Shown here piece after piece: positions 11,698 through 62,235 of a DNA stretch of 64,000 nt. Each line of letters opens with the position of its first letter. Positions within the stretch are counted from its first letter, which is position 1. Location: assembly GCA_900317055.1 (NCBI GenBank), contig ONFF01000020.1, forward strand, positions 62,001 through 126,000, in the 5' to 3' direction. This stretch comes from an uncultured Bacteroidales bacterium. Lineage in GTDB: Bacteria > Bacteroidota > Bacteroidia > Bacteroidales > F082. The position numbers and the translations under genes are program-made. The notes beneath the pieces were generated by a model. The model had not been told where the DNA came from. It saw only the letters and a program-made list of their open reading frames with translations, and made no database searches.

Positions 11698-11725
11698 ACA
11701 ACTGACAACTAACCACTAACAACTG
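11698..11725. repeat. four heptads ACAACTN upstream of mreB
   Basis: Four uninterrupted heptads read ACAACTG, ACAACTA, ACCACTA, ACAACTG. They end 6 nt before the mreB ATG and have no inverted partner arm nearby. Confidence 0.65.
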
Positions 11726-11731
11726 AAGATT

Positions 11732-12754
11732 ATGGGAGCATTTTCATTCCTGAACAAAGAAATCGCTATTGACCTTGGTACGGCCAATACGATTATCATA
11801 TACAACGACAAGGTCGTCGTCGACGAGCCTTCCATCGTGGCGCTACAGCGCGACACGAAGAAAATCATTGCCGTCGGCAAGCGTGCCATGATGATGCACG
11901 GCAAGACCCATGAAAACATCAAGACCATCCGTCCGTTGCGCGACGGCGTCATTGCTGACTTCCAAGCCGCCGAATATATGATGCGCGAGATGATCAAGAT
12001 GATCAATTTCAAGAATACCCTGTTTCCGCCTAGCCTCAAGATGGTCATCTGCATCCCTTCGGGTATCACCGAGGTGGAGGAGCGCGCCGTGAAGGACTCT
12101 GCCGAACAGGCTGGCGCCAAAGAGGTGCGTCTGATTCACGAGCCTATGGCTGCTGCCATCGGTATCGGTATCGATGTGCTTGAGCCGACGGGTAACATGA
12201 TTATCGACATCGGTGGTGGTACCTCAGAAATCGCCGTCATCGCCTTGGGTGGTATCGTCAACAACAAGTCCATCCGCATCGCTGGTGACGACTTCACTGC
12301 CGACATCGAGGAATACATGCGCAAGCAACACAACATCATTGTGGGTGAGCGTACCGCCGAACGCATCAAGATAGAAGTGGGTGCCGCCATTCCGCAGCTG
12401 GACAACCCGCCCGATGACTATGCTGTGCAAGGCCGCGACATGTTGACGGGTATCCCGAAAGAAATCCGCGTCAACTATGCTGAAATTGCCCACTGCCTCG
12501 ACAAGAGTATCATGAAGATCGAGACCGCCGTGTTGAACGCTTTGGAGCAGACCCCGCCCGAGTTGTCGGCTGATATCTATCGCACGGGTATCTACCTGAC
12601 TGGTGGTGGTGCCTTGTTGCGTGGCCTCGACAAGCGTCTCAACGCCAAGACCAAGCTGCCTATCCATGTGGCGGAAGACCCGTTGCGTGCTGTCGCTCGT
12701 GGTACTGGCATCGCCTTGAAGAACTTCGACCGCTTTACATTCTTGATTAAATAA
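11732..12754 (+). CDS. mreB: rod-shape-determining actin-like protein MreB
   Basis: MreB is an ATP-dependent actin homologue that directs lateral wall synthesis. The 340-residue product shows the phosphate-1 loop IDLGTANT, the phosphate-2 region MIIDIGGGTSE, the adenosine motif LTGGGALLRGLD and the KSIRIAGDDF block. The length is normal. It is the first gene of mreBCD. Heptad tracts lie immediately upstream of both mreB and mreC. Confidence 0.97.
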   Translation: MGAFSFLNKEIAIDLGTANTIIIYNDKVVVDEPSIVALQRDTKKIIAVGKRAMMMHGKTHENIKTIRPLRDGVIADFQAAEYMMREMIKMINFKNTLFPPSLKMVICIPSGITEVEERAVKDSAEQAGAKEVRLIHEPMAAAIGIGIDVLEPTGNMIIDIGGGTSEIAVIALGGIVNNKSIRIAGDDFTADIEEYMRKQHNIIVGERTAERIKIEVGAAIPQLDNPPDDYAVQGRDMLTGIPKEIRVNYAEIAHCLDKSIMKIETAVLNALEQTPPELSADIYRTGIYLTGGGALLRGLDKRLNAKTKLPIHVAEDPLRAVARGTGIALKNFDRFTFLIK

Positions 12755-12758
12755 TGCT

Positions 12759-12835
12759 GAATTATGAATGCGGAATGAGGAATGTCGTATGACAAGTTTT
12801 CCTCATTCAGCATTCAACATTCTGCATTCAGCATT
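12759..12835. repeat. CATTCNN inverted-heptad element between mreB and mreC
   Basis: The left arm is GAATTAT, GAATGCG, GAATGAG, GAATGTC (12759-12786). The right arm is CATTCAG, CATTCAA, CATTCTG, CATTCAG, CATT (12804-12835). The spacer is about 17 nt. The right arm ends 9 nt before the mreC ATG. Other copies: 21038, 26584, and 32122 with a gene as spacer. Confidence 0.85.
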
Positions 12836-12844
12836 AAAACAACC

Positions 12845-13660
12845 ATGTACAACCTGCGGCGTTTCATCATTAAACATCACTTCGTCATCTTGTTCATCCT
12901 GCTCGAGGTGATTTCCGTCTTGCTGCTCGCCAATAGCCAACGCTTCCATCGCGACCGCATGGTGAACACGACTAATGATGTCGTGGGGAAAATCTACGAG
13001 TGGAGTAGCGAGGTGGGCAACTATTTCCGCCTCAACAACGCCAACGAGCAACTAGCCGAAGAGAATGCCTTGCTCAGACAAAGGCTGTCGGTAGTTTACG
13101 ACACCACGACTTGTACCTTCGACATCAGTGAGGGCGACACCTTATATAAATACATCCCCGCGCAGGTCGTCAACAATAGTACCAATCAAGCCAACAATTA
13201 TATAATTATTAATAAAGGTAAGGTTGACGGTATTGAGCGCGACATGGGTGTCATTTCCACCGATGGTATCGTGGGTGTGGTGACCGATGTGAGCCGCCAT
13301 TTTGCCTCCGTCATGAGCCTATTGCACAGCAAGTCGGTGGTTGGTGTGCGCATCAAGGAAAGCCAGGAACTTGCCAGCCTGAAATGGGAGACCAACAACT
13401 ATCGCTATGGTATGGTGGAGGACATACCGACACATATCCTTTTACAGAAAGGCGATACCATCTTGACCAGTTCGCATTCCTACATCTTCCCCGAAGACCT
13501 TATGGTGGGTACGGTTGAGGAGTTTTACCCCACCGCCGTCGATGCCTTGAACAAGGCCAAGGTTCGGTTTGCCACCGACTTCGCCACCTTAAGGCATGTC
13601 TATGTGATTAGAGATTTGCACAAACCCGAGCTCGATTCGCTCAAAGCCAGACTCAAATGA
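12845..13660 (+). CDS. mreC: cell shape protein MreC
   Basis: MreC is the bitopic scaffold that links MreB to the wall-synthesis enzymes. The 271-residue product has a short cytoplasmic N-terminus, one membrane helix (about 10-30), a coiled coil (LNNANEQLAEENALLRQRLS) and the paired beta-barrel domains with GKVDGIERDMGVISTDGIVG. ATG 12845 was chosen because upstream in-frame codons only translate the heptad repeat. The next gene starts 1 nt after the stop. Confidence 0.92.
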   Translation: MYNLRRFIIKHHFVILFILLEVISVLLLANSQRFHRDRMVNTTNDVVGKIYEWSSEVGNYFRLNNANEQLAEENALLRQRLSVVYDTTTCTFDISEGDTLYKYIPAQVVNNSTNQANNYIIINKGKVDGIERDMGVISTDGIVGVVTDVSRHFASVMSLLHSKSVVGVRIKESQELASLKWETNNYRYGMVEDIPTHILLQKGDTILTSSHSYIFPEDLMVGTVEEFYPTAVDALNKAKVRFATDFATLRHVYVIRDLHKPELDSLKARLK

Positions 13661-13661
13661 T

Positions 13662-14177
13662 ATGAACAAGACCGTACTACAAATCATCCGTTTCGTCGTG
13701 CTCGTACTCTTTCAAGTGCTGGTCATCAACCATATCCGCCTTGGAGGGTATGTGCATCCGTATATTTATCTGGTTTTCATCATGTTGCTACCGTTCAGCA
13801 CACCCAAATGGCAATTGTTGGTTTTGGGATTTGCCTTGGGTTTGACCGTCGACTTGTTTACGGGAACACCAGGGCTTCACGCCGGAGCCACCACCTTGAT
13901 GGCTTTTTGCCGACCATCCATAATCAAGCTGGTTTCGGGCAACATCAAGTTTGAAAACATCACCGAACCGAATCTTGGTCAGTTGGGAGGACTTTGGTTT
14001 TTCCGGTATGTGCTATGCATGGTGTTTATCCATCATTTTGCGCTGTTTTTCCTCGAGTCGTTCAGTATCAGGCTCATGGGTCAGGTGCTGTTGCGCATCT
14101 TGCTCAGCGTGCCCGTTTCCATCTTCTTGATCATGATGATTCTATACATCTTCAAATCGGAAAAGAAAAGAGAATAA
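13662..14177 (+). CDS. mreD: rod-shape-determining membrane protein MreD
   Basis: The 171-residue polytopic protein has about five membrane helices and the Bacteroidetes MreD pattern of PFSTPKWQLLVLGFALGLTV followed by DLFTGTPGLHAGATTLMAF. It works with MreC in the elongasome. Its ATG lies 1 nt after mreC. The mrdA/rodA genes that often follow in this phylum are absent here; thioredoxin-like lipoproteins follow instead. Confidence 0.9.
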   Translation: MNKTVLQIIRFVVLVLFQVLVINHIRLGGYVHPYIYLVFIMLLPFSTPKWQLLVLGFALGLTVDLFTGTPGLHAGATTLMAFCRPSIIKLVSGNIKFENITEPNLGQLGGLWFFRYVLCMVFIHHFALFFLESFSIRLMGQVLLRILLSVPVSIFLIMMILYIFKSEKKRE

Positions 14178-14199
14178 CACAATAAATATTTGATTTACA

Positions 14200-15285
14200 A
14201 TGAAAAAACATCTACTATTTCTATTTGCTGTGGTCCTTGGCCTGACAGCCTGTAACGAGAAGAAAACCTTTAAAGTCAATGTGGGTTTGACAAATGGCAA
14301 CGAAAAGACTGTTTACTTGCAAAAATATGTCGACAATGTGCCCGTCACCATCGACTCGGCTGTCATTGTTGCCGACCAAGCCGTATTGACTGCGCCTGTT
14401 GACAATCCGCAGCTTCTTTACGCTTTGAAAGTGAAAGGGAAACGAGGCTCTATGCCTTTCTTTGCAGATAACAAGGATGTCGCTTTTGTGGGCGATATGA
14501 ACAACCCGCAAGATGTTGAGATCATCGCTTCGGAAACGCAAGCTGAACTGGATGCCTATAACGACCAGCTTAAAGCTTTTGACACCCAAATTCGCGATCT
14601 GTACGCCGACATGCAGCAAGCTTTTGCAGACAACGATTCCATCATGATGGATTCGCTCAACAAGGTCGGCACGGCATTGATGGAGCAACAAGACAACTTC
14701 CGCGACGATTACATCAAAGCGCATCCGGAGAGTTTTGTCACCCATTACATCCTCGATGGCGTTAAGCAAGACTATCCCATCGACCAGTTGAAAGAATTGG
14801 TTGGCATGTTTACCACCGAATCCATCTATCGTGACCACCTCAATGACTATATCGCCAAGCAGCAGCGTTTGGATGTGGGTCAACCGTTCATCGATTTTAC
14901 CCTGAAAACCAATGATGGCACGGAGGTTGTCTTATCCGAGATGATTCCTCAAAACAAACTCACCTTGGTCGACTTCTGGGCTTCGTGGTGTGGTCCCTGC
15001 CGCAAGGAGAACCCTGTTGTGAAGGCTGCTTATGAGCAGTATCATGGAGCAGGCTTCAATGTCATTGGTGTCAGTGTTGACCAAGATGAAGCCGCTTGGT
15101 TGCAAGCCGTCGAGGAAGACCAGTTGCCTTGGACGCAGGTGCGCGATGCCGAAAACAAGGCCAGCGAAGACTATATGATCTATTACATCCCGTCCAATTT
15201 CCTCTTCGACCAGAACGGCACCATGGTGGCCAAAGGCTTGAGAGGGGAAGACTTGACGGCAAAACTTGCTGAAATCCTGAATTGA
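14200..15285 (+). CDS. TlpA-like thiol-disulfide lipoprotein with DUF4369 domain
   Basis: The 361-residue protein has a lipoprotein signal (LGLTACNEK, Cys near 18), an N-terminal DUF4369 beta domain (about 25-120), a helical linker and a C-terminal thioredoxin domain with active site WASWCGPCRKE. Family members act as periplasmic or surface thiol reductants. It lies 22 nt after mreD and may share its transcript. The next gene is a paralogue. Confidence 0.9.
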   Translation: MKKHLLFLFAVVLGLTACNEKKTFKVNVGLTNGNEKTVYLQKYVDNVPVTIDSAVIVADQAVLTAPVDNPQLLYALKVKGKRGSMPFFADNKDVAFVGDMNNPQDVEIIASETQAELDAYNDQLKAFDTQIRDLYADMQQAFADNDSIMMDSLNKVGTALMEQQDNFRDDYIKAHPESFVTHYILDGVKQDYPIDQLKELVGMFTTESIYRDHLNDYIAKQQRLDVGQPFIDFTLKTNDGTEVVLSEMIPQNKLTLVDFWASWCGPCRKENPVVKAAYEQYHGAGFNVIGVSVDQDEAAWLQAVEEDQLPWTQVRDAENKASEDYMIYYIPSNFLFDQNGTMVAKGLRGEDLTAKLAEILN

Positions 15286-15360
15286 CAATGACTTGTGACA
15301 ATGACTATGACTGCTTTAACATTCGTAAAAGCGGTCATAGTCATAGTCAACAGTCATAGT
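15285..15360. repeat. 36-bp inverted repeat (GTCATA words), copy 1
   Basis: The arms at 15285-15320 and 15325-15360 match at 30 of 36 positions around a 4-nt loop. They consist of tandem 6-7-nt words (AATGACT/AGTCATA). The left arm begins on the last base of the tlpA-like stop codon. Copy 2 is at 40171-40266. Confidence 0.85.
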
Positions 15361-15376
15361 AAATACAACATACACT

Positions 15377-16426
15377 ATGAAAACAAAACTTATACTATTT
15401 GGTGCACTTGCCCTAGGGCTTTTTGCCTGCACCTCAACCCCTAAGACTGAGACTTTTAAGGTCAATGTGAACCTTGCCAATGCCGATGGCAAGATGGTCT
15501 ATCTGCAAAAAGACGGTCAAACCCTTGACTCGGCTGTGATTGCCAATTGGGACGCTGTGTTTGAGACACCGGTTTGCAAAGATAACGAGATGTACAGCGT
15601 CATGCTGCAAGGCTGGCGCCGTCCTTTCCCATTCTTCACGGACAATGTGGATGTGACCCTCGAAGGCGATGCACAGAATCCTAACGCCATCTTAGTGAAA
15701 GGCTCAGAGTCACAAGACCGTCTTAATGCTTTCACTCAGAGCTACAACGACCTTGAGGCCAAGCTGGAAGCCGACAGTACGATGGCTCAAGCTGACAAGG
15801 ATGAGATCCTGAAGATGCACTGCTTCGACTATGTGTGGGAAAACCCGACCGACCCCGTGGCGCATTATGTGATGTACCGCTACAAATGGGCCTTTGGTCC
15901 CTGCGAATTGCGCACGATGATTGATAACATTCACCATGCCGACAGCACCCTCAGCACCGCTAACTTGAAACTGGCTGAGGAATATGTGGAGAAGCAAGAA
16001 CGCGTGCAGGCGGGTCAGCCCATCATCGACTTCACCCAAAACGACCCTGACGGCAACCCCGTGACACTCAGCGAGCTCGCCCAAGGCAAACTCCTTTTGG
16101 TCGACTTTTGGGCTTCGTGGTGCCCCGACTGCCGCAAGGCCAATCCCGATGTGGTGGCAGCCTATCAGAAGTTCCATGATCAAGGCTTTGATGTGCTCGG
16201 CGTGTCGTTCGACACCGACAAGGAAAAATGGCTTGCTGCCATCGAGAAGGACGGTCTCACCTGGACCCATGTCTCCGACCTGCAAGGCTGGAGCAACGCT
16301 GCTGGAGCCTTGTATGCCATTGCTTTCATCCCGCAGAACGCCTTAATCAAGGACGGTATGATTGTAGCTCGCAACTTGGAAGGGGAGGAGTTGATGGAGG
16401 AGATTGGAAGACAGTTGGAAAAGTGA
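15377..16426 (+). CDS. TlpA-like thiol-disulfide lipoprotein, paralogue with CPDC motif
   Basis: The 349-residue lipoprotein (LGLFACTSTP) has the same DUF4369-plus-thioredoxin layout as its upstream neighbour, with whole blocks conserved (TFKVNVNLANADGKMVYLQK, YVEKQERVQAGQPIIDFT). The active site is WCPDC rather than WCGPC, which should alter redox potential; that is inference. It probably arose by tandem duplication. A bidirectional terminator separates it from cysQ. Confidence 0.9.
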   Translation: MKTKLILFGALALGLFACTSTPKTETFKVNVNLANADGKMVYLQKDGQTLDSAVIANWDAVFETPVCKDNEMYSVMLQGWRRPFPFFTDNVDVTLEGDAQNPNAILVKGSESQDRLNAFTQSYNDLEAKLEADSTMAQADKDEILKMHCFDYVWENPTDPVAHYVMYRYKWAFGPCELRTMIDNIHHADSTLSTANLKLAEEYVEKQERVQAGQPIIDFTQNDPDGNPVTLSELAQGKLLLVDFWASWCPDCRKANPDVVAAYQKFHDQGFDVLGVSFDTDKEKWLAAIEKDGLTWTHVSDLQGWSNAAGALYAIAFIPQNALIKDGMIVARNLEGEELMEEIGRQLEK

Positions 16427-16448
16427 TTTGAGCAGATTCCGTAAATTG

Positions 16449-16480
16449 AAAAATGACGCGAATTATTTCGCGTCATTTTT
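16449..16480. terminator. bidirectional hairpin terminator
   Basis: AAAAATGACGCGAA and TTTCGCGTCATTTTT flank a 3-nt loop between convergent genes, with A and T tracts on both sides. Confidence 0.85.
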
Positions 16481-17209: not shown

Positions 17210-17213
17210 GGTG

Positions 17214-17221
17214 CAAAAGTA
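17214..17221 (-). promoter_or_regulatory. -7 box of cysQ, next to the start codon
   Basis: On the minus strand TACTTTTG is followed by CACC and then ATG. Transcription should start at or within a few bases of the AUG. Confidence 0.6.
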
Positions 17222-17231
17222 GTGTTTTTTT

Positions 17232-17332
17232 GACTATGGTCTATAGCCTATGGCTTACGGCAGCTACACGAAAAGCGTAAACACCTACCCTTATGTGAAG
17301 CTGCCATAGGCCATTAGCCATCTGCCATAGTT
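17232..17332. repeat. GCCATNN inverted-heptad element, copy 1
   Basis: The left arm 17232-17269 (CTATGG words) pairs with the right arm 17295-17332 (CTGCCAT, AGGCCAT, TAGCCAT, CTGCCAT) at 28 of 38 positions. The spacer is 25 nt. It lies between the divergent cysQ and topA promoters. Confidence 0.8.
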
Positions 17333-17407
17333 AATTTTATTATGCTGCAAATCAATAATATAAGAAAAAAACTCTAAAAAGATTAGCTTTGTCAACTTTT
17401 ATTCCAC

Positions 17408-17415: not shown

Positions 17416-17466
17416 CACGCGAAAACGAGGGGTTGCAGGAGCATCCTTAGTGTAAAAATAGAGACT

Positions 17467-21037: not shown

Positions 21038-21135
21038 GAATTAGGAATTATGAATGCTGAATGGGAGCAAAGCCCAGAGTGCATTGCACCATTCAGCATT
21101 CTTCATTCAGCATTCCACATTCATCATTCATCATT
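21038..21135. repeat. CATTCNN inverted-heptad element
   Basis: The left arm has four GAATNNN heptads (21038-21065). The right arm has six CATTCNN heptads plus CATT (21090-21135). The 24-nt spacer contains GGTGCAATGCAC. The right arm ends 5 nt before ATG 21141. Confidence 0.85.
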
Positions 21136-21140
21136 AAAGA

Positions 21141-25452: not shown

Positions 25453-25458
25453 TAGAAA

Positions 25459-25535
25459 CAAGACTGCGAGACGCGGGGTTTTTAATCCCCCCGGCCCCCT
25501 TTCAAGGGGGAGTTGTCCCGCGTCTTGCAGTCTTG
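25459..25535. repeat. composite hairpin element before the RND operon
   Basis: CAAGACTGCGAGACGCGGGG pairs with CCCGCGTCTTGCAGTCTTG. Two smaller hairpins sit inside (GGGGtttttaatCCCC and CCCCCtttcaaGGGGG). It lies 7 nt after the lipoprotein stop and 8 nt before the adaptor start. Confidence 0.8.
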
Positions 25536-25542
25536 AGTCAAA

Positions 25543-26610
25543 ATGAATACTAAAATGAAAACAAAACATATTCTTTGGCTCCTTCCCCTGTTGCTGGTGG
25601 GTTGCGGTGAAACTGACCCGCAGCAACTCAAGGAGAAGCTCATTGGCGGTCCCGCCGAGGAGCGCGTCATCACCGTGGGTGTGCAGCGTATCGACACGGT
25701 GGGAGGTTTGGTGCGCAACAGCTACCCTGGCTACCTTGAAGAAGGCAACACCGTCGACATCAGCTTCAAATATGGCGGCACATTGCAGACGCTCAACGTG
25801 AAAGAAGGCAGCACGGTGCGCAAAGGACAAGTGCTGGCGCGTGTGTCCTCGCCACAGATGGAGAGCACACAACGCTCGGCACAAGCCACCCTTGAACAGG
25901 CCCAAGATGCCTACGACCGCCTGAAAAAGGTACACGACAAAGGCAGCCTCCCCGAAATCAAATGGCGCGAGATGGTGGCCAACCTTGAGAAAGCCCAAGC
26001 GGCACTCGACTTGGCCAACGCCATGCTCGCCGACAACACCGTCACTGCCCCCTTCGACGGCACTGTCACCAATTTGAGTGCCGTGAAAGGCGAGAGCATC
26101 ACGCCGCTGAAACCCATCATGCGCATCATCAGTACCGAGGGCTTGGTGGTGAAAATCAGCGTGCCGGAGAATGAAATCTCCAAGGTGCAGATTGGCGATG
26201 AGGCACAAATCCTCATCCCCGCCCTCGACAACCGTCGCTGCAAAGGCCATATCCTCGAAAAGAACATGACTTCATCGTTGCTCACGCATAGCTATCCCGT
26301 CAAAGTGCTCATTGATGAAAGAGACGAGGCTTTCACCCCTGGTATGATTGCCAAAGTGGTGCTGAGTGCGGATGTTGACAATGGCATTGTCGTCCCAGCC
26401 AATGCGGTCCTGATTAACAACGACGGCAAGTTCGTGTGGGTAGCGAAAGACGGTCGCGCAACGAGGCAAAACATCACCATCTCGGGCTATTCAGGCACGG
26501 GTGTGGTGGTGAGCGAAGGCTTGCATAGTGGCGACATTGTCATCGTGGAAGGATATCAGAAGGTTAGTGAAGGAATGAAAGTGGAATGTGGAATGCGGAA
26601 TGATGAATGA
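25543..26610 (+). CDS. RND efflux periplasmic adaptor (membrane fusion protein)
   Basis: The 355-residue lipoprotein (LLLVGCGETD) has the adaptor layout: lipoyl half-motifs (GTLQTLNVKEGSTVRKGQVL and TAPFDGTVTNLSAVKGE), a helical hairpin between them and a beta-barrel domain. It links the inner-membrane pump at 26691 to the TolC-like protein at 29786. Its final residues (ECGMRNDE) and stop codon are supplied by the left arm of a CATTCNN element, so the original C-terminus was probably changed. Confidence 0.92.
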   Translation: MNTKMKTKHILWLLPLLLVGCGETDPQQLKEKLIGGPAEERVITVGVQRIDTVGGLVRNSYPGYLEEGNTVDISFKYGGTLQTLNVKEGSTVRKGQVLARVSSPQMESTQRSAQATLEQAQDAYDRLKKVHDKGSLPEIKWREMVANLEKAQAALDLANAMLADNTVTAPFDGTVTNLSAVKGESITPLKPIMRIISTEGLVVKISVPENEISKVQIGDEAQILIPALDNRRCKGHILEKNMTSSLLTHSYPVKVLIDERDEAFTPGMIAKVVLSADVDNGIVVPANAVLINNDGKFVWVAKDGRATRQNITISGYSGTGVVVSEGLHSGDIVIVEGYQKVSEGMKVECGMRNDE

Positions 26611-26676
26611 TGAATGTCGCGATGCGACGCGGGGCTTCGCCCTTCATTCAGCATTCAGCATTCATAATTCAGCATT
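26584..26676. repeat. CATTCNN inverted-heptad element overlapping the adaptor stop
   Basis: The left arm has five GAATGNN heptads (26584-26618). The first 27 nt are coding and include the adaptor stop TGA at 26608-26610. The right arm has four heptads plus CATT (26645-26676). The spacer is GC-rich (GCGATGCGACGCGGGGCTTC). Confidence 0.85.
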
Positions 26677-26690
26677 AAAAGAAAAACTTA

Positions 26691-31735: not shown

Positions 31736-31912
31736 TCACGCAGAATTCGCAGAACTATTTGAATCTCGATGCGACATATAATTTCTCACGCAGAATTCGC
31801 AGAATAATATGAAGCACAAAGCGACATTTCCTTTCTCACGCAGAAATCGCAGAATTGTTTGACATTAGGTTTGCGTCCGGTAGGTTCTGCGCTTTCTGCG
31901 TATTCTGCGTGA
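31736..31912. repeat. three 50-bp tandem units plus TTCTGCGNN inverted arm
   Basis: The core TCACGCAGAATTCGCAGAA starts at 31736, 31786 and 31836, exactly 50 bp apart, with CGCAGAANN nonamers inside. The opposite arm, three TTCTGCGNN nonamers, is at 31885-31912. A single-unit copy is at 62148-62235. The whole can fold into a long stem. Confidence 0.85.
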
Positions 31913-32121: not shown

Positions 32122-32152
32122 ATTATGAATTATGAATGCTGAATGCTGAATG
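32122..32152. repeat. left arm (GAATGNN) of the gene-bearing CATTCNN element
   Basis: ATTATGAATTATGAATGCTGAATGCTGAATG is followed by GACGCGAAGCGACGC. Its inverted partner is the array at 32535-32625. The four-helix-bundle gene fills the space between. Confidence 0.75.
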
Positions 32153-32169
32153 ACGCGAAGCGACGCTGA

Positions 32170-32517
32170 TTATTTATGCTGGTTTTTTGTTATGGCTGTT
32201 AGGATGCTTAATAGCTCTTCACATTTGTCATTCAGATCATTAAACATTTCGTCTGGAAGGTAATCTGTAGCATGGATAATGTCAAGCCAATAACTGGTTT
32301 CACTTGCTTCTTTCAAAGCAATGCTCATTTTGGCATAGAAATCAGGCTTGGTTTGTGCCCTGACTCCTTCTGCTACATTAGCACCAATGCTAGTTCCTGC
32401 ACGTAGTACCTGTTTAGACATAACATATTCATGCTTCTCTTCACATAACCATTGATATGCTCTAATGATATCTATGGCAAAGTCTCTGCTTTTAGTCTTT
32501 ATTATATTATCTCCCAT
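32170..32517 (-). CDS. four-helix-bundle protein (23S rRNA intervening-sequence protein family)
   Basis: The 115-residue all-alpha protein has the family hallmark QVLRAGTSIGANVAEG and a C-terminal WLDIIHATDYL...ELLSILTAITK. Family members occur in rRNA intervening sequences and as scattered chromosomal genes; the molecular role is unknown. The gene lies exactly between the two inverted arms of a CATTCNN element, as if it were cargo. It is AT-rich compared with pgi. Confidence 0.9.
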   Translation of the reverse strand: MGDNIIKTKSRDFAIDIIRAYQWLCEEKHEYVMSKQVLRAGTSIGANVAEGVRAQTKPDFYAKMSIALKEASETSYWLDIIHATDYLPDEMFNDLNDKCEELLSILTAITKNQHK

Positions 32518-32534
32518 TTCGTTTTATTTTTAAT

Positions 32535-32625
32535 CATTCCACATTCCACATTCCACATTCAGCATTCAGCATTCCACATTCAGCATTCAGCATTCCACAT
32601 TCAGCATTCCACATTCAGCATTCCA
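32535..32625. repeat. array of 13 perfect heptads (CATTCCA/CATTCAG)
   Basis: Thirteen uninterrupted heptads, each CATTCCA or CATTCAG, occupy 91 bp and end 3 nt before the pgi stop codon. They are the right arm of the gene-bearing element. Pure arrays of this kind often vary in copy number. Confidence 0.9.
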
Positions 32626-32628
32626 CAT

Positions 32629-33960
32629 TTAAAGATTCAGCCGTTTATTCAGCGCAGCCGTCTGCTCCTCAAACCCTTTCTTGCCCAGCAAAGCGAACAT
32701 GTTCTTCTTGTAGGCTTCCACGCCGGGTTGGTCGAAGGGATTCACATCCAGCATGTAGCCGCTGACGGCGCAGGCCATCTCGAAGAAATAGATCAGTTCG
32801 CCGAGGACCTTTTCGGAGACTTCGGGTATGACGATGCGCAGGTTCGGTACGCCGCCGTCCTCGTGGGCCAGCACGGTGCCGAGTTCAGCCTTGTGGTTCA
32901 CCTCGCTGATGCGCTTGCCGGCGATGTAGTTGAGTTGGTCGAGGTCTTCGTTCTCCATGGGGATACGGAGCTCGTGGTTCGAGTTCTCCACCGAAATCAC
33001 CGTCTCGAAGAGGTTACGCAGACCGTCCTGGATGTATTGTCCCATCGAATGCAAGTCGGTGCTGAAGGTGACCGAAGCGGGGAAGATGCCCTTGTGCTGT
33101 TTGCCGTGGCTCTCGCCGTAGAGTTGTTTCCACCATTCGCTGAAATACACCAGACGCGGCTCATAGTTGACCATGATCTCGTTGGTCAGGCCTTGGGCGT
33201 AGAGGGCTTGACGCACCACGGCATATTGCGTGACGGGGTTCTCAAGGGTGGGGCAGGCTTTGCATTGTTTCTCCATTTCGACGGCGCCCTTCACCAAGGC
33301 GCGGATGTCGATGCCCGCCATGGCGATAGGCAGCAAGCCCACGGGAGTGAGCACCGAGAAGCGGCCGCCCACATCGTCGGGGACGATATAGGTCTTGTAG
33401 CCTTTTACGTTGGCTAGTTGCTTCAAAGCGCCACGAGCCTTGTCGGTGATGGCAATGATGCGCGAGGCGGCCTCCTGTTCGCCGTATTTGTTGATGATAT
33501 GTTGCTTGAGAATACGGAAGGCGATGGCGGGTTCCGTCGTCGTGCCCGACTTGGAAATGACGGCCAACGAGTAGTCTTTCTTATCGAGGATGGCCATGAG
33601 GTCGTGGAGGTAGTCCTCGCTCATGTTATGGCCAGCATAGACGATGAGCGGCTTCTCGCCAGTGAGTGGTGCGAAGTGGTTCTGCAACGCCTCGATAACG
33701 GCACGGGCGCCGAGATAGGAGCCGCCTATGCCGATGACGACGAAGATGTCCGACTTCTTGCGCAGGTCGGCAGCCGTCTTCTCAATGTCGGCTAACAGGC
33801 TTTCATCGATTTCGGAAGGCAAGTTCACCCAACCCAAAAAGTCGTTTCCGGCACCAGTTTTATTAAAAACCGTCTCGTAAACATTTGATATTCTTGATTC
33901 TAATGAATTGACGACCGCTTTGTCCAAAAACGGTTCGGCGTGTGTGAGGTCGATTTTCAT
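32629..33960 (-). CDS. pgi: glucose-6-phosphate isomerase
   Basis: Pgi interconverts glucose-6-phosphate and fructose-6-phosphate. The 443-residue product, a normal length for this phylum, shows VVIGIGGSYLGARAVIEAL, SKSGTTTEPA, GGRFSVLTPVGL and the C-terminal signature with FDQPGVEAYK. ATG 33960 was chosen because it starts the conserved MKIDLTHAEPF and has a near-consensus TATCTTCG box 25 nt upstream. Confidence 0.97.
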   Translation of the reverse strand: MKIDLTHAEPFLDKAVVNSLESRISNVYETVFNKTGAGNDFLGWVNLPSEIDESLLADIEKTAADLRKKSDIFVVIGIGGSYLGARAVIEALQNHFAPLTGEKPLIVYAGHNMSEDYLHDLMAILDKKDYSLAVISKSGTTTEPAIAFRILKQHIINKYGEQEAASRIIAITDKARGALKQLANVKGYKTYIVPDDVGGRFSVLTPVGLLPIAMAGIDIRALVKGAVEMEKQCKACPTLENPVTQYAVVRQALYAQGLTNEIMVNYEPRLVYFSEWWKQLYGESHGKQHKGIFPASVTFSTDLHSMGQYIQDGLRNLFETVISVENSNHELRIPMENEDLDQLNYIAGKRISEVNHKAELGTVLAHEDGGVPNLRIVIPEVSEKVLGELIYFFEMACAVSGYMLDVNPFDQPGVEAYKKNMFALLGKKGFEEQTAALNKRLNL

Positions 33961-40170: not shown

Positions 40171-40266
40171 ACAATGACTTGTGCCAATGACTATGACCGC
40201 TTTAACGAAGCCAAGAATCTTCTATATTTAATAAAAGCGGTCATTGTCATAGTCTATAGTCATAGT
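40171..40266. repeat. 36-bp inverted repeat (GTCATA words), copy 2
   Basis: The arms 40171-40206 and 40231-40266 surround a 24-nt spacer. The left arm is nearly identical to that at 15285-15320. It lies between convergent genes. Confidence 0.85.
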
Positions 40267-43747: not shown

Positions 43748-43775
43748 TCACAAAACCGACAAAACCATCAAAACA
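43748..43775. repeat. left terminal arm (ACAAAACCN words) of the GxxExxY element
   Basis: The arm consists of three nonamers, each with CAAAAC at its core. It matches the inverted copy at 44365-44392 at 24 of 28 positions. Two hairpins lie inside it (GCAACGGC/GCCGTTGC and CCCGACtaaaGTCGGG, 43789-43842). Confidence 0.8.
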
Positions 43776-43858
43776 ATAGTTGTGGGAACAAGCAACGGCA
43801 CCCAACCGGGAAGCCGTTGCCACACCCGACTAAAGTCGGGTATTAAAACTCAATTGAT

Positions 43859-44293
43859 ATGATTGATGTTGAGGCTCTAAAGGCTTATGCTTACGTTACA
43901 ATAGGTGCTATTCACGAAGTCCATAAAGAATTAGGGCCTGGACTGAATGAAAAAGTCTATCAAGAAGGACTTCAATTGGAGTTGTCGGAAAGAAATATCC
44001 CTTTTCAGAAAGAGTTGACGTTTCATCCCTTGTATCACGGAAAGGAAATGGAAGCTACTTATAGGCTTGATTTCTTGGTAAACGATGACATTATTATTGA
44101 GTTAAAGTCTGTTGAGAGTTTAACGAGTGAACATAAAGCCCAACTATTCAACTATATGAGACTAATGAAAGCTTCTGTAGGTATTTTAGTGAACTTTTAC
44201 CCAAGGTTTGCTGAAATCGAACGTTATTTCTTTGATTCAGAAAGCAATGAAGTATACGCCTCCGATGGTTTTCCCATCAGAAAATACAGTTAA
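43859..44293 (+). CDS. GxxExxY family protein
   Basis: The 144-residue protein carries the family motif GLNEKVY within HKELGPGLNEKVYQ, plus RLDFLVNDDIIIELKSVE, which looks like a PD-(D/E)xK nuclease core, though activity is not established. It is scattered irregularly among genomes. Here it is AT-rich and sits between inverted 28-nt arms and hairpins, like cargo. No promoter is visible close to the start. Confidence 0.9.
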   Translation: MIDVEALKAYAYVTIGAIHEVHKELGPGLNEKVYQEGLQLELSERNIPFQKELTFHPLYHGKEMEATYRLDFLVNDDIIIELKSVESLTSEHKAQLFNYMRLMKASVGILVNFYPRFAEIERYFFDSESNEVYASDGFPIRKYS

Positions 44294-44364: not shown

Positions 44365-44392
44365 TGTTTTGTGAGTTTTGTAGGTTTTGTGA
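44365..44392. repeat. right terminal arm of the GxxExxY element
   Basis: TGTTTTGTG, AGTTTTGTA and GGTTTTGTG are three tandem nonamers, inverted relative to 43748-43775. Two hairpins precede it (GCATCCgaaGGATGC and GGAAAGC/GCTTTCC, 44304-44349). It ends 11 nt before the menA ATG. Confidence 0.8.
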
Positions 44393-48920: not shown

Positions 48921-49017
48921 CTGGCTTCTGGCTCTTGGCTTCTGGCAGCTTGTTGACAAAATGTAAACTTTCCTTTATCATAGAGCTGCCAGTAGCCAGA
49001 AGCTAATGGCCAGTAGC
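48921..49017. repeat. GCCAGNN inverted-heptad element in the argF leader
   Basis: The left arm is CTGGCTT, CTGGCTC, TTGGCTT, CTGGCAG (48921-48948). The right arm is CTGCCAG, TAGCCAG, AAGCTAA, TGGCCAG (from 48985). The spacer is about 33 nt. Between the left arm and the argF ATG is a tract of AATCTTA-type heptads on the minus strand. Confidence 0.8.
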
Positions 49018-57049: not shown

Positions 57050-57051
57050 AC

Positions 57052-57351: not shown

Positions 57352-57420
57352 GCAGGCTTCGGAAAGCATGTTATTTCCACGCTCACTATCACTCTTCAAC
57401 GGACTACTACTGTTCTTCTT

Positions 57421-57541
57421 GCCCTCATGGCGGAGAGGCATCCGCCATCCCTCACGCTATTGGGAGACAATCGAAAATCGTCTTTTTCATGCAGTCGTTT
57501 CGTGTCAGGGATAGCGGATCGTGGCCGTCCGCTATGAGGGC
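57421..57541. repeat. composite hairpin element (ATGGCGGA/TCCGCCAT)
   Basis: Outer GCCCTCAT and ATGAGGGC enclose ATGGCGGAgaggcaTCCGCCAT and ATAGCGGA/TCCGCTAT. The first hairpin is shared with the radA leader element at 3622-3736. Confidence 0.75.
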
Positions 57542-57668
57542 CTCGGGGAAAGGATTGTCGTTGAAGGAGTTTCTTTGTTGTTATTGCTTACAGGAATGAC
57601 CTAACATGTAACCGGCCATCATTAAAACTCAAACTCCATTTTGTTTTTGTTTTTCCCAAAAATGTCAT

Positions 57669-57676
57669 TACTTTTG
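57669..57676 (+). promoter_or_regulatory. -7 box for the 57738 gene
   Basis: TACTTTTG lies 61 nt before the ATG. Confidence 0.55.
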
Positions 57677-57737
57677 CAGGGTTAAACCTTTGTTTTGTAA
57701 TGGCACCTTGAATGATTCATAACCAAACCTTACACCA

Positions 57738-58397
57738 ATGAAAAAGACAATATTATCCACTTTGGCTTTGCTCATCATCATGATGGTGGGAGCCACTTCA
57801 GTCAACGCACAAAACGACAAAACCATGAACAATTCAACCACTAAAATTCAAGACGGCAAAGTAAGTATCGAGTCCATTCCGGCCACCCTCGATGAGTTCA
57901 AGGCCCTGCAAGCCGAGTTGGGTACTACTCCCGAAGGCTGCATCATGCTGCAACTCGTGGCCATGGAAATGTATCGCCGCGACAAGAACATTGGCCAAGA
58001 ATGCCTGAGCCTCAACAACACGAGCACCAACCTCTCATCGGTGACACGCCGTTTGAACGAACTGTATCGCCCGAACGACTCTTATGCCAGACCCTATCTG
58101 GTGTCAGCGTGCTTCAAAGGGGCAACGCCCGCTAACGGCTACAATCCTACCAAACCTTTCACCATCGAATTGCGTAGAGACCCTGTCCGTCCCAATGACG
58201 AACGCTCACAGATGCTGAGAGGCTATGTGAAATACTTCCAGCTCTACAGCGACGGCTGGGATACCCATTGGCGCAACGTCGAAGTGGTGCAGCAGCAAGG
58301 CGACCCATACTATCGCGTCTCCAACTGCCCCGCCATCCTCACCCAGTGCAAGGAAATCGACTTCGACGCCACGGACGAATGGCATGGATTGGAATAA
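57738..58397 (+). CDS. secreted hypothetical protein (DUF6935-like)
   Basis: The 219-residue protein has a signal peptide (ends VNAQ). The mature part is well structured: ATLDEFKALQAELGTTPEGC, VAMEMYRRDKNIGQECL and VSNCPAILTQCKEID. It resembles a family I recall as DUF6935, of unknown role and found in gut Bacteroidetes and Firmicutes. Pairs of cysteines suggest an oxidising location. Confidence 0.7.
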   Translation: MKKTILSTLALLIIMMVGATSVNAQNDKTMNNSTTKIQDGKVSIESIPATLDEFKALQAELGTTPEGCIMLQLVAMEMYRRDKNIGQECLSLNNTSTNLSSVTRRLNELYRPNDSYARPYLVSACFKGATPANGYNPTKPFTIELRRDPVRPNDERSQMLRGYVKYFQLYSDGWDTHWRNVEVVQQQGDPYYRVSNCPAILTQCKEIDFDATDEWHGLE

Positions 58398-58412
58398 TAA
58401 TATGCACTCAAC

Positions 58413-58508
58413 GATGGCCTATGGCTAATGACTATGGCAACTTCACCCAAGGCATAAAAGTTTCCCATTTTGTTGAAGTAGCCATAGTCATAGGCCATTA
58501 GCCATAGT
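58413..58508. repeat. GCCATNN inverted-heptad element, copy 2
   Basis: The left arm is ATGGCCT, ATGGCTA, ATGACTA (from 58414). The right arm is TAGCCATAGTCAT, AGGCCAT, TAGCCAT (58479 on). GAAGT and ACTTC pairs lie at the inner ends. It matches 17232-17332 in word and layout. ATTCAAC-type 8-nt words then run to the next start codon. Confidence 0.8.
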
Positions 58509-58561
58509 CCAAACAATTCAACAATTCAACGATTCAACAACCAACGATTCAACAACACCCA

Positions 58562-60700
58562 ATGAAACGCATCACATTATTAATCACCTTCATCCTCACG
58601 CTCTCCATCGGCATTGCCAAGGCCGGCGAAGGCATGTGGATTCCCATGCTGCTGCAATACAACGAGAAAGAAATGCAGGAGATGGGCATGAAAATCACCG
58701 CTGACGACATCTATTCCATTAATCACAGTAGCTTGAAAGACGCCATCGTGCTCTTCGGCGGCGGCTGCACGGGCGAAATCGTCAGCGACTACGGTCTGCT
58801 GCTCACCAACCACCACTGCGGTTTCGACTACATCCAGAAACACAGCTCTGTGGAGCACGACTACCTCACCAACGGCTTCTGGGCCATGAATAGGGGAGAG
58901 GAGTTGCCCTGCCCGGGCCTCAGCGTCATCTTCCTCCGCGAGATGCGCGACGTGACCGAAAAGGTGCTGCATGGCATCACCCCCGACATGCCTGAAGACG
59001 AACGTCAGGCCAAAATCGACGAGAACATGAAGAAAATCATCTCCACCGTCGAGAAGGAGACCCCATATAAGGTCAGCATCAAGCCGTTCTTCTTGGGCAA
59101 TGAGTACTACCTGTTGCTCAACGAGGTCTACACAGATGTGCGACTCGTGGGTTGCCCGCCGAGCAACATCGGCAAGTTTGGCGGCGACACCGACAACTGG
59201 GTCTGGCCCCGCCACACGGGCGACTTCAGCATCTTCCGCGTCTATGCCGACAAGGACGGTCACCCGGCTGTGTACGATAAGGACAATGTGCCCTATAAGC
59301 CCGCCAAGCACCTCGACATCTCGCTGAAAGGCGCCGAAGAGGGCGACTTCGCCTTCGTGTTCGGCTATCCTGCCCGCACCAACGAATACCTGCCCGCCGT
59401 GGCTGTCGACCAAGAGGCCAACCTCATCGACCCCATCACCGTTGACCTGCGTGGTAAGGTGCTCGACATCTACAACAAATACCAAGAGCAAGACCCCAAG
59501 GTGCGCATCCAGTATGCCTCCAAGCACGCCGGACTCGGCAATGGCTGGAAGAAGTGGATGGGCGTGACCGAAGGCATTAATCACTTCCACGGCGTGGAGA
59601 AGAAACAGGCTTTCGAGAAGGACTTCCAGGAATGGGCCTTGGGCGCACGCAACCGCTATATGTACATCGACCTGCTGAAGGACTTCGAGAAAAACTATAA
59701 GGAACTTGAGCCTTACCAGTTGGCTTACACCTACATGGCCGAAGCAGGACTACGAATCGAGTTGGTCACTTTCGCAGGTCGTTTTGCCAAGCTTTCCGAG
59801 GTGACCAAGGACACCCCTCAGGACGACATCGACCGCATGATCCACCAACTGAAAGCCACCTCTGCCAGCTTCTTCAAGGACTATTATGAGCCCATCGACC
59901 GCGAGGTGGCCGTCATGGCACTCAACGAATACCTGAAAGCCCAGCCCGCCGACTTCCGCCCTGCCTTCCTCAACGACATCAAGGATGTGAATGAATTTGT
60001 CGACAAACTCTTCGCCAAGTCGATGTTTAGGGATGAGGAAAAGGTGAACGAGCTGCTGAATGACTTCAAGCCCAGCAAAGCCAAGAAACTGGCCAAAGAC
60101 CCTGCTTTGCAGGTTTACCAGAGCTTGCTTGACTTCTACCGCAATAATGTCTACGAGCACATCTCAAGCATCAATAAGGCTAACGACCGTCTGCGCCGCA
60201 TCTACATGAAAGGTCAGATGGACATGCAGCCTGAGAAGCGCCTCTTCCCCGACGCCAACTTCACGCTGCGCGTCACCTACGGCAAGATCGAAGGCTTCAA
60301 GCCGCAGGACGGCAAGACCTACCGCCACTTCACCACCCTCGAGGGCATCATACAGAAGGAGAACCCCGACATTTATGACTATGTGGTGGAGCCGCGCCTG
60401 AAGCAGCTGTATATTAATAAGGATTACGGCCGCTATGCCGACAAGGATGGCACCATGCATGTGGCCTTCACCGCCAGCGTGCACACCACGGGCGGCAACT
60501 CAGGTAGCCCCATCTTGAACGCCGAAGGACAGCTCCTCGGCCTCAACTTCGACCGTTGCTGGGAAGGCACGATGAGCGACCTCATCTACGACCCCGACAT
60601 CTGCCGCAACATCAGCGTCGATATCCGTTATGTGCTCTTCATCATCGACAAGTTTGCCGGTGCAGGGCATCTCATTGACGAGATGACGATTGTAGAATAA
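58562..60700 (+). CDS. S46 family dipeptidyl-peptidase, DPP11-type (Asp/Glu-specific)
   Basis: S46 enzymes release dipeptides from peptide N-termini in the periplasm. The 712-residue product has a signal peptide (ends near AKAG), the catalytic histidine in LTNHHCGF (84/85), the aspartate in RHTGDFSIFRVY and the serine Ser647 in GGNSGSP. Arg665 lies 18 residues after the serine (NFDRCW), the position that is Arg in DPP11 and Gly in DPP7, so acidic P1 specificity is predicted. No T9SS domain. Confidence 0.92.
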   Translation: MKRITLLITFILTLSIGIAKAGEGMWIPMLLQYNEKEMQEMGMKITADDIYSINHSSLKDAIVLFGGGCTGEIVSDYGLLLTNHHCGFDYIQKHSSVEHDYLTNGFWAMNRGEELPCPGLSVIFLREMRDVTEKVLHGITPDMPEDERQAKIDENMKKIISTVEKETPYKVSIKPFFLGNEYYLLLNEVYTDVRLVGCPPSNIGKFGGDTDNWVWPRHTGDFSIFRVYADKDGHPAVYDKDNVPYKPAKHLDISLKGAEEGDFAFVFGYPARTNEYLPAVAVDQEANLIDPITVDLRGKVLDIYNKYQEQDPKVRIQYASKHAGLGNGWKKWMGVTEGINHFHGVEKKQAFEKDFQEWALGARNRYMYIDLLKDFEKNYKELEPYQLAYTYMAEAGLRIELVTFAGRFAKLSEVTKDTPQDDIDRMIHQLKATSASFFKDYYEPIDREVAVMALNEYLKAQPADFRPAFLNDIKDVNEFVDKLFAKSMFRDEEKVNELLNDFKPSKAKKLAKDPALQVYQSLLDFYRNNVYEHISSINKANDRLRRIYMKGQMDMQPEKRLFPDANFTLRVTYGKIEGFKPQDGKTYRHFTTLEGIIQKENPDIYDYVVEPRLKQLYINKDYGRYADKDGTMHVAFTASVHTTGGNSGSPILNAEGQLLGLNFDRCWEGTMSDLIYDPDICRNISVDIRYVLFIIDKFAGAGHLIDEMTIVE

Positions 60701-60703
60701 GTG

Positions 60704-60866
60704 ATCTCTAACCGAACAGATCCGAATTAATCCGATGGTTTTCTGGTGTTTTCGGGTTGGTTCGGTTAGAGGAATAAAAGAAAGGCAATTGTCGGAAAAT
60801 CTCTAACCGAATTAATCCGAATAAATCCGATGGTTTTCTGATGTTTTCGGGTTGGTTCGGTTAGAG
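60704..60866. repeat. two tandem copies of a CTCTAACCGAA hairpin
   Basis: Copies at 60704-60772 and 60799-60866 (period 95 bp) each have CTCTAACCGAA at the left and TTCGGTTAGAG at the right. TCCGAATNAAT words lie near the left and GGTTTTCTGNTGTTTTCGGG in the middle. They lie between convergent genes. Confidence 0.85.
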
Positions 60867-60881
60867 AAATAGAATCGGTCT

Positions 60882-62072
60882 TTAGTCTATAACTATAACT
60901 CGTTTGGTCACAATACCCTTTTCTGTTTGGATGCCGACGAAATAAAGTCCCGCTTCATGAGGACTGAAATCGTACTCAAAGCTGTTGCCGCTCGCTGATG
61001 CTTCAAACAGTTTTTCTCCCAAAAGGTTGTAAATGCTGACGGCTACGATGTTTTCGGCCTCGATTCTGATTGTCCCACAGGTCGGGTTGGGATAAACGGT
61101 AGCCATCTCCTCGTCCAGTTCGGGCACATCGTTGCAGTCTTCGACGATCGTGGGGAAATATCCATGCCAGTCCGAGTTTTGGTAGGCAGGAATGCAGTGG
61201 CACGACACGGTGAGCGTTGTGCAGTTGCATCCCTCAAACACCTCTTCGTATGAAAACACGGGCGGCACGGTAGCCAAGGAAGCGATTTCCGTAAACCCGC
61301 TGCAATGGTAGAAAGCCATACCTCCAATGCTTTCCAAGGCGTTTCCAAGGGTTAGTTTGCCCGTAAATCCGCAGTTTTTGAAGGCGCTGGGTTCGATGCA
61401 TTTCACAGAATTCGGGATGGTCAGGTCGCCGGTGAAGCCCGTGCAACCCCAGAAGGCGGAAGTGCCGATGGAAGTCACGCCACTGCCGATGGTCAAGCTG
61501 GTGAATTTGTTACACTTATAGAACGCCGCCACCTCGATGCGATTCAATGCATTGCCGATAGTCAGTGCGCCGTCGAAACCCGTGCAACCATAGAATGCGG
61601 CAATCCCTAAAAACCTCACGGAATTAGGGATGGTCAGCGAACCGGTCATGCCTTTGCAACCATAGAATGCAGCGGGTCCGATGGTGTCCACGGAGCTGCC
61701 CAGGTCCACTGAAGTCAGTCCGCTGCAGGCCAAGAAAGCGTTTTCGCCGATATAGGTCACCGTGTTGGGAATGGTCAAATGACCACTCAGTTTTCCGCAC
61801 GAGATGAAAGCGTTCTTTTGGATCCGGGTCACGGTATAGTTGTTTCCGTTGTAGCTGATGCTGGTCGGGAGGTTTAACTCACCGCTTACCCCAGAGGCGT
61901 CAACATGACATACCAGCGTGGCCGAAACGCCGTCGCCATTGAGTTGGTACAGGAAATCCCCTACGGCGAAGATCTCTTGTGCGTGCAGATGCGTCGTTCC
62001 CATAACTCCCAAAAAAAGAACGGATAAGACAGCGCGTGCCGCTATTCTGAATAAGGAAGAAATGCTTTTCAT
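60882..62072 (-). CDS. BspA-like leucine-rich-repeat T9SS protein
   Basis: The 396-residue protein has a signal peptide (ends HAQE), then about seven LRR_5 (BspA-type) repeats of about 23 residues with the pattern LTIPNSVxxIGxxAFYGCxG (about 70-275). A C-terminal Por domain follows (YPNPTCGTIRIEA to TKRVIVID). BspA proteins bind host matrix proteins or other bacteria. A perfect 18-bp palindrome lies 27 nt upstream of its start. Confidence 0.88.
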   Translation of the reverse strand: MKSISSLFRIAARAVLSVLFLGVMGTTHLHAQEIFAVGDFLYQLNGDGVSATLVCHVDASGVSGELNLPTSISYNGNNYTVTRIQKNAFISCGKLSGHLTIPNTVTYIGENAFLACSGLTSVDLGSSVDTIGPAAFYGCKGMTGSLTIPNSVRFLGIAAFYGCTGFDGALTIGNALNRIEVAAFYKCNKFTSLTIGSGVTSIGTSAFWGCTGFTGDLTIPNSVKCIEPSAFKNCGFTGKLTLGNALESIGGMAFYHCSGFTEIASLATVPPVFSYEEVFEGCNCTTLTVSCHCIPAYQNSDWHGYFPTIVEDCNDVPELDEEMATVYPNPTCGTIRIEAENIVAVSIYNLLGEKLFEASASGNSFEYDFSPHEAGLYFVGIQTEKGIVTKRVIVID

Positions 62073-62098
62073 AATGGTACGGTTTTATTCAAGTTTCG

Positions 62099-62116
62099 TA
62101 CATCTCTAGAGATGTA
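62099..62116. promoter_or_regulatory. perfect 18-bp palindrome upstream of the BspA-like gene
   Basis: TACATCTCTAGAGATGTA is its own reverse complement, 27 nt before the start codon. It has no loop, so a dimeric protein site is more likely than an RNA hairpin. Confidence 0.5.
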
Positions 62117-62147
62117 AGATATTGATTATTAGGTGTTTTTTAAGCAC

Positions 62148-62235
62148 GCAGAATTCGCAGAATTATAGGAAATGCAAAGCGCCGTCAACTAAATGTCTGA
62201 TAGGCTTCTGCGATTTCTGCGATTTCTGCGTGAAA
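62148..62235. repeat. TTCTGCGNN inverted-nonamer element, single-unit copy
   Basis: The left arm ACGCAGAATTCGCAGAATT is mirrored by three TTCTGCGNN nonamers ending TTCTGCGTG. It is the simple form of the tandem version at 31736-31912. Confidence 0.85.

Follow-up and report, generated by a model that had tools for sequence, protein, structure and literature searches.

Intergenic hairpins built of 7- or 9-nucleotide words in a Bacteroidales genome and their likeness to the intervening sequences of 23S rRNA genes

A 64,000-nt stretch of DNA from an uncultured Bacteroidales bacterium (positions 62,001 to 126,000 of contig ONFF01000020.1, assembly GCA_900317055.1), here called the window and belonging to a 3.5-Mb draft genome, carries in several of its intergenic gaps hairpins whose inverted arms consist of a short word repeated in tandem every 7 or 9 nucleotides. 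The question raised by these hairpins is why the repeat step is kept while the word varies from one gap to the next. An earlier reading, made from the sequence alone, suggested that one process might underlie all of them: slippage, templated extension, or a protein common to the hairpins and acting on them, for example. We found that the step goes with the family of a small gene that some of the elements enclose. As detailed below, the hairpins probably represent small and widely distributed elements, likely selfish in nature, that have the same construction as the intervening sequences (IVS) of 23S rRNA genes, with the gene-less copies being derivatives that arose by internal deletion.

The genome was scanned without reference to particular words: a locus was recorded when one arm held two copies of some 5-mer at a given step and the opposite arm held two copies of its reverse complement with an identical step. 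In 41 stretches comprising 864 kb of the window's own genome, inverted arm pairs were detected at 31 loci with step 7 and 17 loci with step 9, while two Markov controls gave none for either step. A chance origin of the arm pairs in this genome is thereby excluded. At other steps the same scan yielded 8 loci (step 6; controls 0 and 0), 2 (step 8; 0 and 2), 4 (step 10; 0 and 1), 1 (step 11; 1 and 0) and 1 (step 12; 0 and 1); the 9 loci with step 13 and the 25 with step 14 were mostly 6 + 7 and 7 + 7 sums. A few of the step-9 loci resembled A-rich or coding DNA more than word hairpins. The phasing is less strict than the 7 or 9 nt originally proposed: the GTCAT elements use steps of 6 and 7, and a CCGAA element has step 10. 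Among relatives, 20 stretches (313 kb) contained 16 loci with step 7 (controls 0 and 1) and none with step 9. Further words that came to light were GTCAT, GCTGA, GCTAA, CAGTT/AACTG, AGAAGTC and GAAAGGT.

Within the window, inverted arms were confirmed at three CATTCNN sites, both GCCATNN sites, the GCCAGNN site and both TTCTGCGNN nonamer sites (Table 1). Two further sites listed with them, a CATTC-type arm at 32122 and a nonamer arm at 43748, proved not to be complete hairpins. They gave the impression of single arms since 0.4-0.6 kb and a gene separate each from its second arm: the partner of the former is a CATTC array and that of the latter a right arm at about 44366-44391, with an open reading frame (ORF) in between in both cases. 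Nor are all the words as unrelated as first thought. By eye, units of GCCAT, GCCAG and GTCAT are mixed within single elements that have inner sequence in common, and the CATTC and TTCTGCG elements share pieces of their cores.

The two enclosed ORFs encode a protein of the 23S_rRNA_IVP family (hereafter IVP) and a GxxExxY protein with a PDDEXK_3 match; in the genus, these families were matched in 37 and 27, respectively, of 40 genomes. With two words required in each arm, inverted arms surrounded 25 of 28 IVP loci of the genus, as compared to 0 of 30 mreC loci and 3 of 27 Y1 transposase loci. The word step in the flanks was determined by comparing steps 5-12 at 52 IVP and 28 GxxExxY loci, with 30 mreC loci and 27 of 30 Y1 loci as controls. 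The IVP set comprised 29 loci from the genus (28 of 30, two short ones being omitted, plus the window locus), 16 plasmid loci hand-picked from 48 matches, and 7 of 11 viral-contig loci, near-copies being omitted; the 11 came from one query, and three other queries returned nothing. The GxxExxY set comprised 23 loci from the genus together with 5 of the 8 found on plasmids. The best step of the IVP flanks was 7 in 42 of 52 cases (8 in 5, 6 in 3, 9 in 1 and 12 in 1), whereas that of the GxxExxY flanks was 9 in 21 of 28 (10 in 3, 8 in 2, 11 in 1 and 12 in 1). The split between 7 and 9 was therefore 42/1 against 0/21 (P=5e-16, the loci being non-independent). With one vote per protein cluster it was 31/1 versus 0/14 at 70% identity (P=6e-11) and 22/1 versus 0/6 at 50% identity (P=1.5e-5). 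Inverted arms with z≥4 were present at 36/52 IVP, 17/28 GxxExxY, 0/30 mreC and 16/27 Y1 loci; among these, step 7 was found in 29/36 IVP and 0/17 GxxExxY loci, and step 9 in 1/36 and 14/17. Since both gene families were largely drawn from the same genus, its general richness in hairpins does not explain the split. By origin, step 7 was best at 22/29 genus, 15/16 plasmid and 5/7 viral-contig IVP loci, that is, at 20/23 outside the genus. The step follows the gene family, being mostly 7 for IVP and mostly 9 for GxxExxY, while the word varies. In a tree without support values, the IVP genes with step 6 (L410, L424 and L426) fell into one part, together with the GCCAT/GCCAG group.

The make-up of the arms was followed in the CATTC family, for which a survey of 1.26 Mb of the own genome, in part stretches picked for CATTC runs, yielded 28 elements with two arms, plus 20 lone arms of which 15 hold at least three units. 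An arm holds 3-7 units, five being the commonest number (left arm 14/28, right arm 16/28). The words are kept, and the two positions between them, at first described as free, are constrained: the spacers are mainly AG, AT, CG, CA and CT, with 88 AG and 41 AT among 210, a single G at position 1 and no C at position 2. Spacers of opposite arms failed to match in all registers between -3 and +3 (at register 0, 21 of 93 agreed, 22.4 being expected). Identical adjacent spacers were below expectation (26 versus 33.7, P=0.03), and repeats at lag two were slightly above it (29 versus 20.9, P=0.02). Copying from arm to arm, in or out of register, is not supported, as opposite spacers are unmatched and identical neighbours depleted. 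Of the shared processes initially considered, that of a common protein is favoured by a step that follows the encoded family while the word varies. Polymerase slippage with template switching on chance palindromes, by which words would expand mutationally as in the short tandemly repeated repetitive (STRR) and TAACTGA heptads without any dedicated protein, would account for long, near-perfect arrays such as that at 32535-32630 and those on plasmids, and direct heptads are known from Cyanobacteria, Beggiatoaceae and Bacteroidetes (accessible part of PMC4679880). However, slippage offers no reason for a step of 7 with one gene and of 9 with another, adjacent identical units are depleted, and the arms are not mutual copies, which makes this explanation highly improbable in our view.

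The gene-less hairpins share both words and core sequence with the gene-bearing elements. CATTC, GCTAA, GCTGA, GCCAT and GCCAG recur on IVP elements, and TTCTGCG and ACAAAACC on GxxExxY elements. Moreover, CGCGAAGCGACGCTG, which adjoins the left arm of the window's IVP element, was found in all 7 of the gene-less CATTC cores that were chosen from the 28; the matches span 13-16 nt, contain 1-2 mismatches and have shuffle P values of 0 to 0.004. The ACAAAACC element was likewise compared with the gene-less L061:8427. Their right halves aligned with a score of 41 and their left halves with a score of 20, the shuffle maximum being 14 in both cases. In the two families compared, the shared arms and cores point to a gene-bearing parent that had the same ends, as expected of miniature inverted-repeat transposable elements (MITEs). 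The most plausible reading of the gap hairpins is that they derive from IVS-like elements and lack the gene. Of the 28 two-armed CATTC elements, 11 have a core akin to GGGCAAAGCCCAGCGTCGCATTGCGA. The core as an independently mobile piece was rejected: a 19-nt piece of it, with up to 4 mismatches allowed, had 14 matches in the 1.26 Mb, of which 11 lay inside CATTC arms, while the other three (all with 4 mismatches) comprised two coding-like sequences and one different hairpin.

Orthologous gaps differed between close relatives in the hairpins that they contain. Between the window genes that we take from their sequence to be mreB and mreC (12755-12844; another we take to be topA), 10 of 20 relatives have a gap of only -1 to 3 nt, while three hairpin types are distributed over the other 10: a CATTC hairpin in G044, G046, G019 and G021, another hairpin in G016, G012, G018 and G045, and a third, word-built type in G002 and G023. 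Genome G016 is 92.4% identical to the own genome in aligned DNA (244 kb of summed matches), and it retains two of the seven CATTC elements with comparable flanks (7 of the 28), the other five sites being occupied by other hairpins. In G012 and in stretch L235 of G016, a hairpin is nested at the centre of another. Such turnover bears on the idea that the elements are immobile regulatory or structural RNA hairpins, selected in operon gaps for mRNA processing, stability or attenuation, whose words would be recognised by an RNA-binding protein. Sites between operon genes would suit this idea, including mreB-mreC and gaps among cas, hsd and DISARM/BREX genes. Both neighbours were co-directional with the ORF at 14 of 19 plasmid loci with annotated neighbours, and examples of neighbours are cas6-IVP-cas4, cas10-IVP-cmr3, hsdS-IVP-hsdR, drmD-IVP-pglX and fabD-GxxExxY-fabG. 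One orthologous pair in which 0/50 word positions and 6/16 spacer positions had changed would also suit it, but in the remaining retained pairs the spacers were conserved about as well as the words. In addition, close relatives have the same gap empty or filled by an unrelated hairpin, and the enclosed genes are left unexplained. We therefore consider immobile RNA hairpins very unlikely. At plasmid loci L442, L444, L447 and L454, IVP genes lie amid genes of CRISPR, restriction and DISARM/BREX systems.

In the interpretation that we favour, that of selfish IVS-like elements, inverted arms enclose either a short core or one small gene, encoding an IVP protein (mostly with heptad arms) or a GxxExxY PD-(D/E)XK protein (mostly with nonamer arms). 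The gene-less hairpins would have arisen by internal deletion, retaining both arms and some of the core. The encoded protein may bind the arms with one word per subunit, as in TRAP, whose subunits each take one of a series of spaced triplets; its geometry would then set the step, while the spacers would be left free and the word could drift. In cis or in trans, the protein might aid the spread of the element or its tolerance inside transcripts. A common protein acting on word-built hairpins, as originally suggested, is thus supported in part by the link between step and gene, with the binding of words being our inference. An IVP-family protein of X. campestris is described as a homopentameric toroid (accessible part of PMC4990558), and five chains are present in each of the PDB relatives 2rld and 2gsc. 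That five units per arm might fit a pentamer is only suggestive.

Several observations weigh against this interpretation. The mreC flanks also had a best step of 7 in 7 of 30 cases, albeit in weak runs. Step 9 was found at 19/23 GxxExxY loci of the genus and at only 2/5 on plasmids, and outside the genus inverted arms with z≥4 were limited to 9/23 IVP loci and 0/5 GxxExxY loci (1/5 in another count); the nonamer half of the link between step and gene rests almost wholly on one genus. Word and protein covaried only where the proteins are closely related (489 pairs less than 80% identical gave r=0.14, P=0.0035), and between the genus and other taxa it amounted to r=0.035 (P=0.31; 32 of the 52 loci used), so that a word-protein code across all taxa is weak. 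Among 24 genomes of the genus, CATTC hairpins were present in 4 of 9 that have a cognate IVP homolog (at least 48% identity) and in 6 of 15 that have none (P=1), and the matches to these hairpins showed no relation to IVP number (rho -0.10, P=0.66). The cognate IVP was accordingly rejected as a predictor of hairpin number. Genomes G019 and G002 have many hairpins and no CATTC-IVP homolog, although their completeness is just 79 and 72%. No clear target duplication was seen at the empty sites compared, where the ends of the element are not fixed.

A further point is that the CATTC hairpin matches rise with the number of Y1 transposase genes in the same 24 genomes (rho 0.50, P=0.012). This would be expected if the hairpins were repetitive extragenic palindromic (REP) sequences or bacterial interspersed mosaic elements (BIMEs) moved by a Y1 transposase (TnpA-REP, or REP-associated tyrosine transposase, RAYT), with the IVP and GxxExxY genes as passengers caught between hairpins. 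The own genome indeed has six Y1_Tnp matches, and by eye some cores contain CCGGTAGG, which includes GTAG, though not at the hairpin foot; GTAG tags REPs (accessible part of PMC3733652). However, CATTC and TTCTGCG arms were absent from 32 Y1 flanks, of which 4 had a single ATGGC or GCCAG match, two Y1 loci of the own genome have other palindromes alongside, and the best step of Y1 flanks was 7 in 0/27, despite the other inverted arms noted in 16 of them. Passengers would, moreover, not be predicted to go with a word step according to gene family. RAYT as the driver was rejected because Y1 flanks hold other palindromes, although the counts correlate, and we regard the passenger model as rather unlikely. 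Descent from one degenerated REP family is not supported, given the absence of CATTC and TTCTGCG arms from Y1 flanks; hairpin number is nonetheless still tied to Y1 number. The Y1 genes in L126 and in L009 (11600-12350) are flanked by palindromes of their own, GCATCCCGTAGGGATG and CGTGTCGAAGACACG.

The spread of the CATTC hairpins beyond the window was apparent from wider searches. CATTC hairpins were found in 9 of the 40 genomes, the own genome included, and in 0/16 genomes outside the genus. The pattern GAATGNNGAATG(5-35)CATTCNNCATTC occurred in at least 119 stretches among 84,980 species genomes, whereas chance alone would give about 7 by our arithmetic (257 Gb x 31 gap lengths / 4^20). These stretches hold 126 elements, 91 of them with six or more units (range 4-22, both arms summed), and the first 80 include Acidobacteria, Chloroflexi, Planctomycetes, Verrucomicrobia, Gemmatimonadetes, Nostoc, Nitrospira, Proteobacteria, Clostridia-type bacteria and Bacteroidota. 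In the 119 stretches (908 kb), which were picked for CATTC and hence are no random sample, words other than CATTC gave 46 loci with step 7 (Markov 1), 17 with step 9 (2), 9 with step 8 (2), 14 with step 6 (1), 12-nt steps at 10 (1), 10-nt steps at 6 (3) and 5-nt steps at 6 (0); many of the step-6 and some of the step-9 matches resemble GC-rich coding DNA. A hidden Markov model search of these stretches and 30 viral-contig stretches, with short-flank loci omitted, identified three IVP loci, all with step 7, two of which have CATTC-like arms and are from Chloroflexi (again stretches picked for CATTC), and one GxxExxY match with a best step of 6. CATTC hairpins were also seen in the 30 viral-labelled stretches (L371-L400), four each in two of them; host contamination is possible. 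Tentatively, rRNA IVS, cyanobacterial heptads and word hairpins could be one family of bacteria-wide selfish elements in which a small ring-forming or nuclease-like protein counts along its own arms, one word per subunit whatever that word, IVP at 7 nt and GxxExxY at 9 nt, the gene-less copies being non-autonomous.

Table 1. Word-built elements of the window, with the genes enclosed by two of them
Feature	Position	Strand	Remark
CATTCNN hairpin, mreB-mreC gap	12752..12836		relatives: missing or other hairpin types there
GTCAT hairpin, 6/7-nt steps	15288..15357		
GCCATNN hairpin	17232..17331		not in orthologous gap of G007, G048, G018, G003, G023, G049
CATTCNN hairpin	21038..21136		
CATTCNN hairpin with main core (TCGCGATGCGACGC..GGGCTTCGCCC)	26577..26677		gap = 4 nt in G023
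TTCTGCGNN nonamer hairpin, three tandem left arms (units about 58 nt)	31739..31909		
Left GAATGNN arm of gene-bearing CATTC element	32127..32152		
115-aa ORF, 23S_rRNA_IVP (PF05635), four-helix-bundle protein	32170..32517	-	E=3e-29
Right CATTCNN arm, 14 units, of gene-bearing CATTC element	32535..32630		
GTCAT hairpin, 6/7-nt steps	40174..40263		
Left ACAAAACCN arm (ACAAAACC) of GxxExxY element	43748..43776		
144-aa ORF, PDDEXK_3 (PF13366), GxxExxY protein	43859..44293	+	E=3.8e-36
Right arm GTTTTGTGAGTTTTGTAGGTTTTGTG of GxxExxY element	44366..44391		
GCCAGNN hairpin	48921..49013		
GCCATNN hairpin	58414..58505		
CCGAA hairpin (step 10), two tandem copies	60712..60860		
TTCTGCGNN nonamer hairpin	62147..62230		

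Some elements resemble others elsewhere. A hairpin similar to that at 31739-31909 follows an IVP locus in L427 and has one left arm, and single hairpins like the CCGAA pair are present in L055 at 9948 and 12508. At 25453-25542 of the window there is a nested hairpin, with GAGAC/GTCTC-type arms enclosing a CCCCC/GGGGG palindrome. A one-armed heptad run at 11698-11724, CAACTGACAACTAACCACTAACAACTGA, is near in sequence to the TAACTGA repeats (accessible part of PMC4679880). The window gave no match to Rfam at the gathering score.

The hairpins can be set beside several known systems. Like REP/BIME sequences with RAYT, they are short, dispersed, intergenic palindromes that are at times nested; unlike these, their arms are word arrays, and the RAYT genes of the genus are flanked by other palindromes. 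Intergenic heptads are also typical of the cyanobacterial STRR sequences, and the four-helix-bundle fold of IVP has a relative in Avd, the accessory protein of diversity-generating retroelements. The BrickBuilt MITE of Porphyromonas gingivalis, another member of the Bacteroidales, is likewise intergenic with inverted ends and tandem units inside, but according to the accessible part of PMC4596501 these are 23-nt direct units between the ends, whereas the window arms themselves are made of 7- or 9-nt words. The TAACTGA repeats of Cyanobacteria, Beggiatoaceae and Bacteroidetes are intergenic heptads across distant phyla as well, and the genus contains both a hairpin with AACTG/CAGTT words and an IVP gene with AACTG arms. 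They differ in being described as direct, apart from a single inverted instance in the BOGUAY genome, and the accessible part of PMC4679880 mentions no gene inside inverted arms; the CATTC family, in contrast to a direct-only class, has its 28 inverted elements besides the 20 lone arms. In the open-access literature, as far as its accessible parts go, no published link of IVP or GxxExxY genes to word arms was found.

The closest likeness is to the 23S rRNA IVS with an S23p/IVP ORF, as in Coxiella and Leptospira, which have inverted arms around an IVP gene; in Coxiella, tandem heptamers precede the S23p gene, RNase III excises the IVS from the transcript, and the function and origin of the IVS and the S23/IVP protein are called unclear (accessible part of PMC4990558). 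An IVP ORF between inverted arms was found in the window (32127-32630) as in the 25/28 loci of the genus, while the gene-less hairpins have no ORF. One IVP locus that we examined, L456 on an Azospirillum plasmid, lies inside LSU (large-subunit) rRNA (896 bits). By eye it has heptad arms on both sides, although the computed z was 0 and -0.5, we think because the ORF start used falls inside the left arm. The window elements differ in lying between protein genes, not within a 23S rRNA gene, in being mostly gene-less, and in having a second, nonamer class with a different gene. The link between step and gene gives the S23/IVP protein a testable substrate. It also suggests that rRNA IVS are perhaps a minor, conspicuous fraction of a large population lying between genes, which would house the heptad repeats of Cyanobacteria, Beggiatoaceae and Bacteroidetes, to the extent that the accessible part of PMC4679880 describes them, together with unannotated hairpins of environmental genomes.

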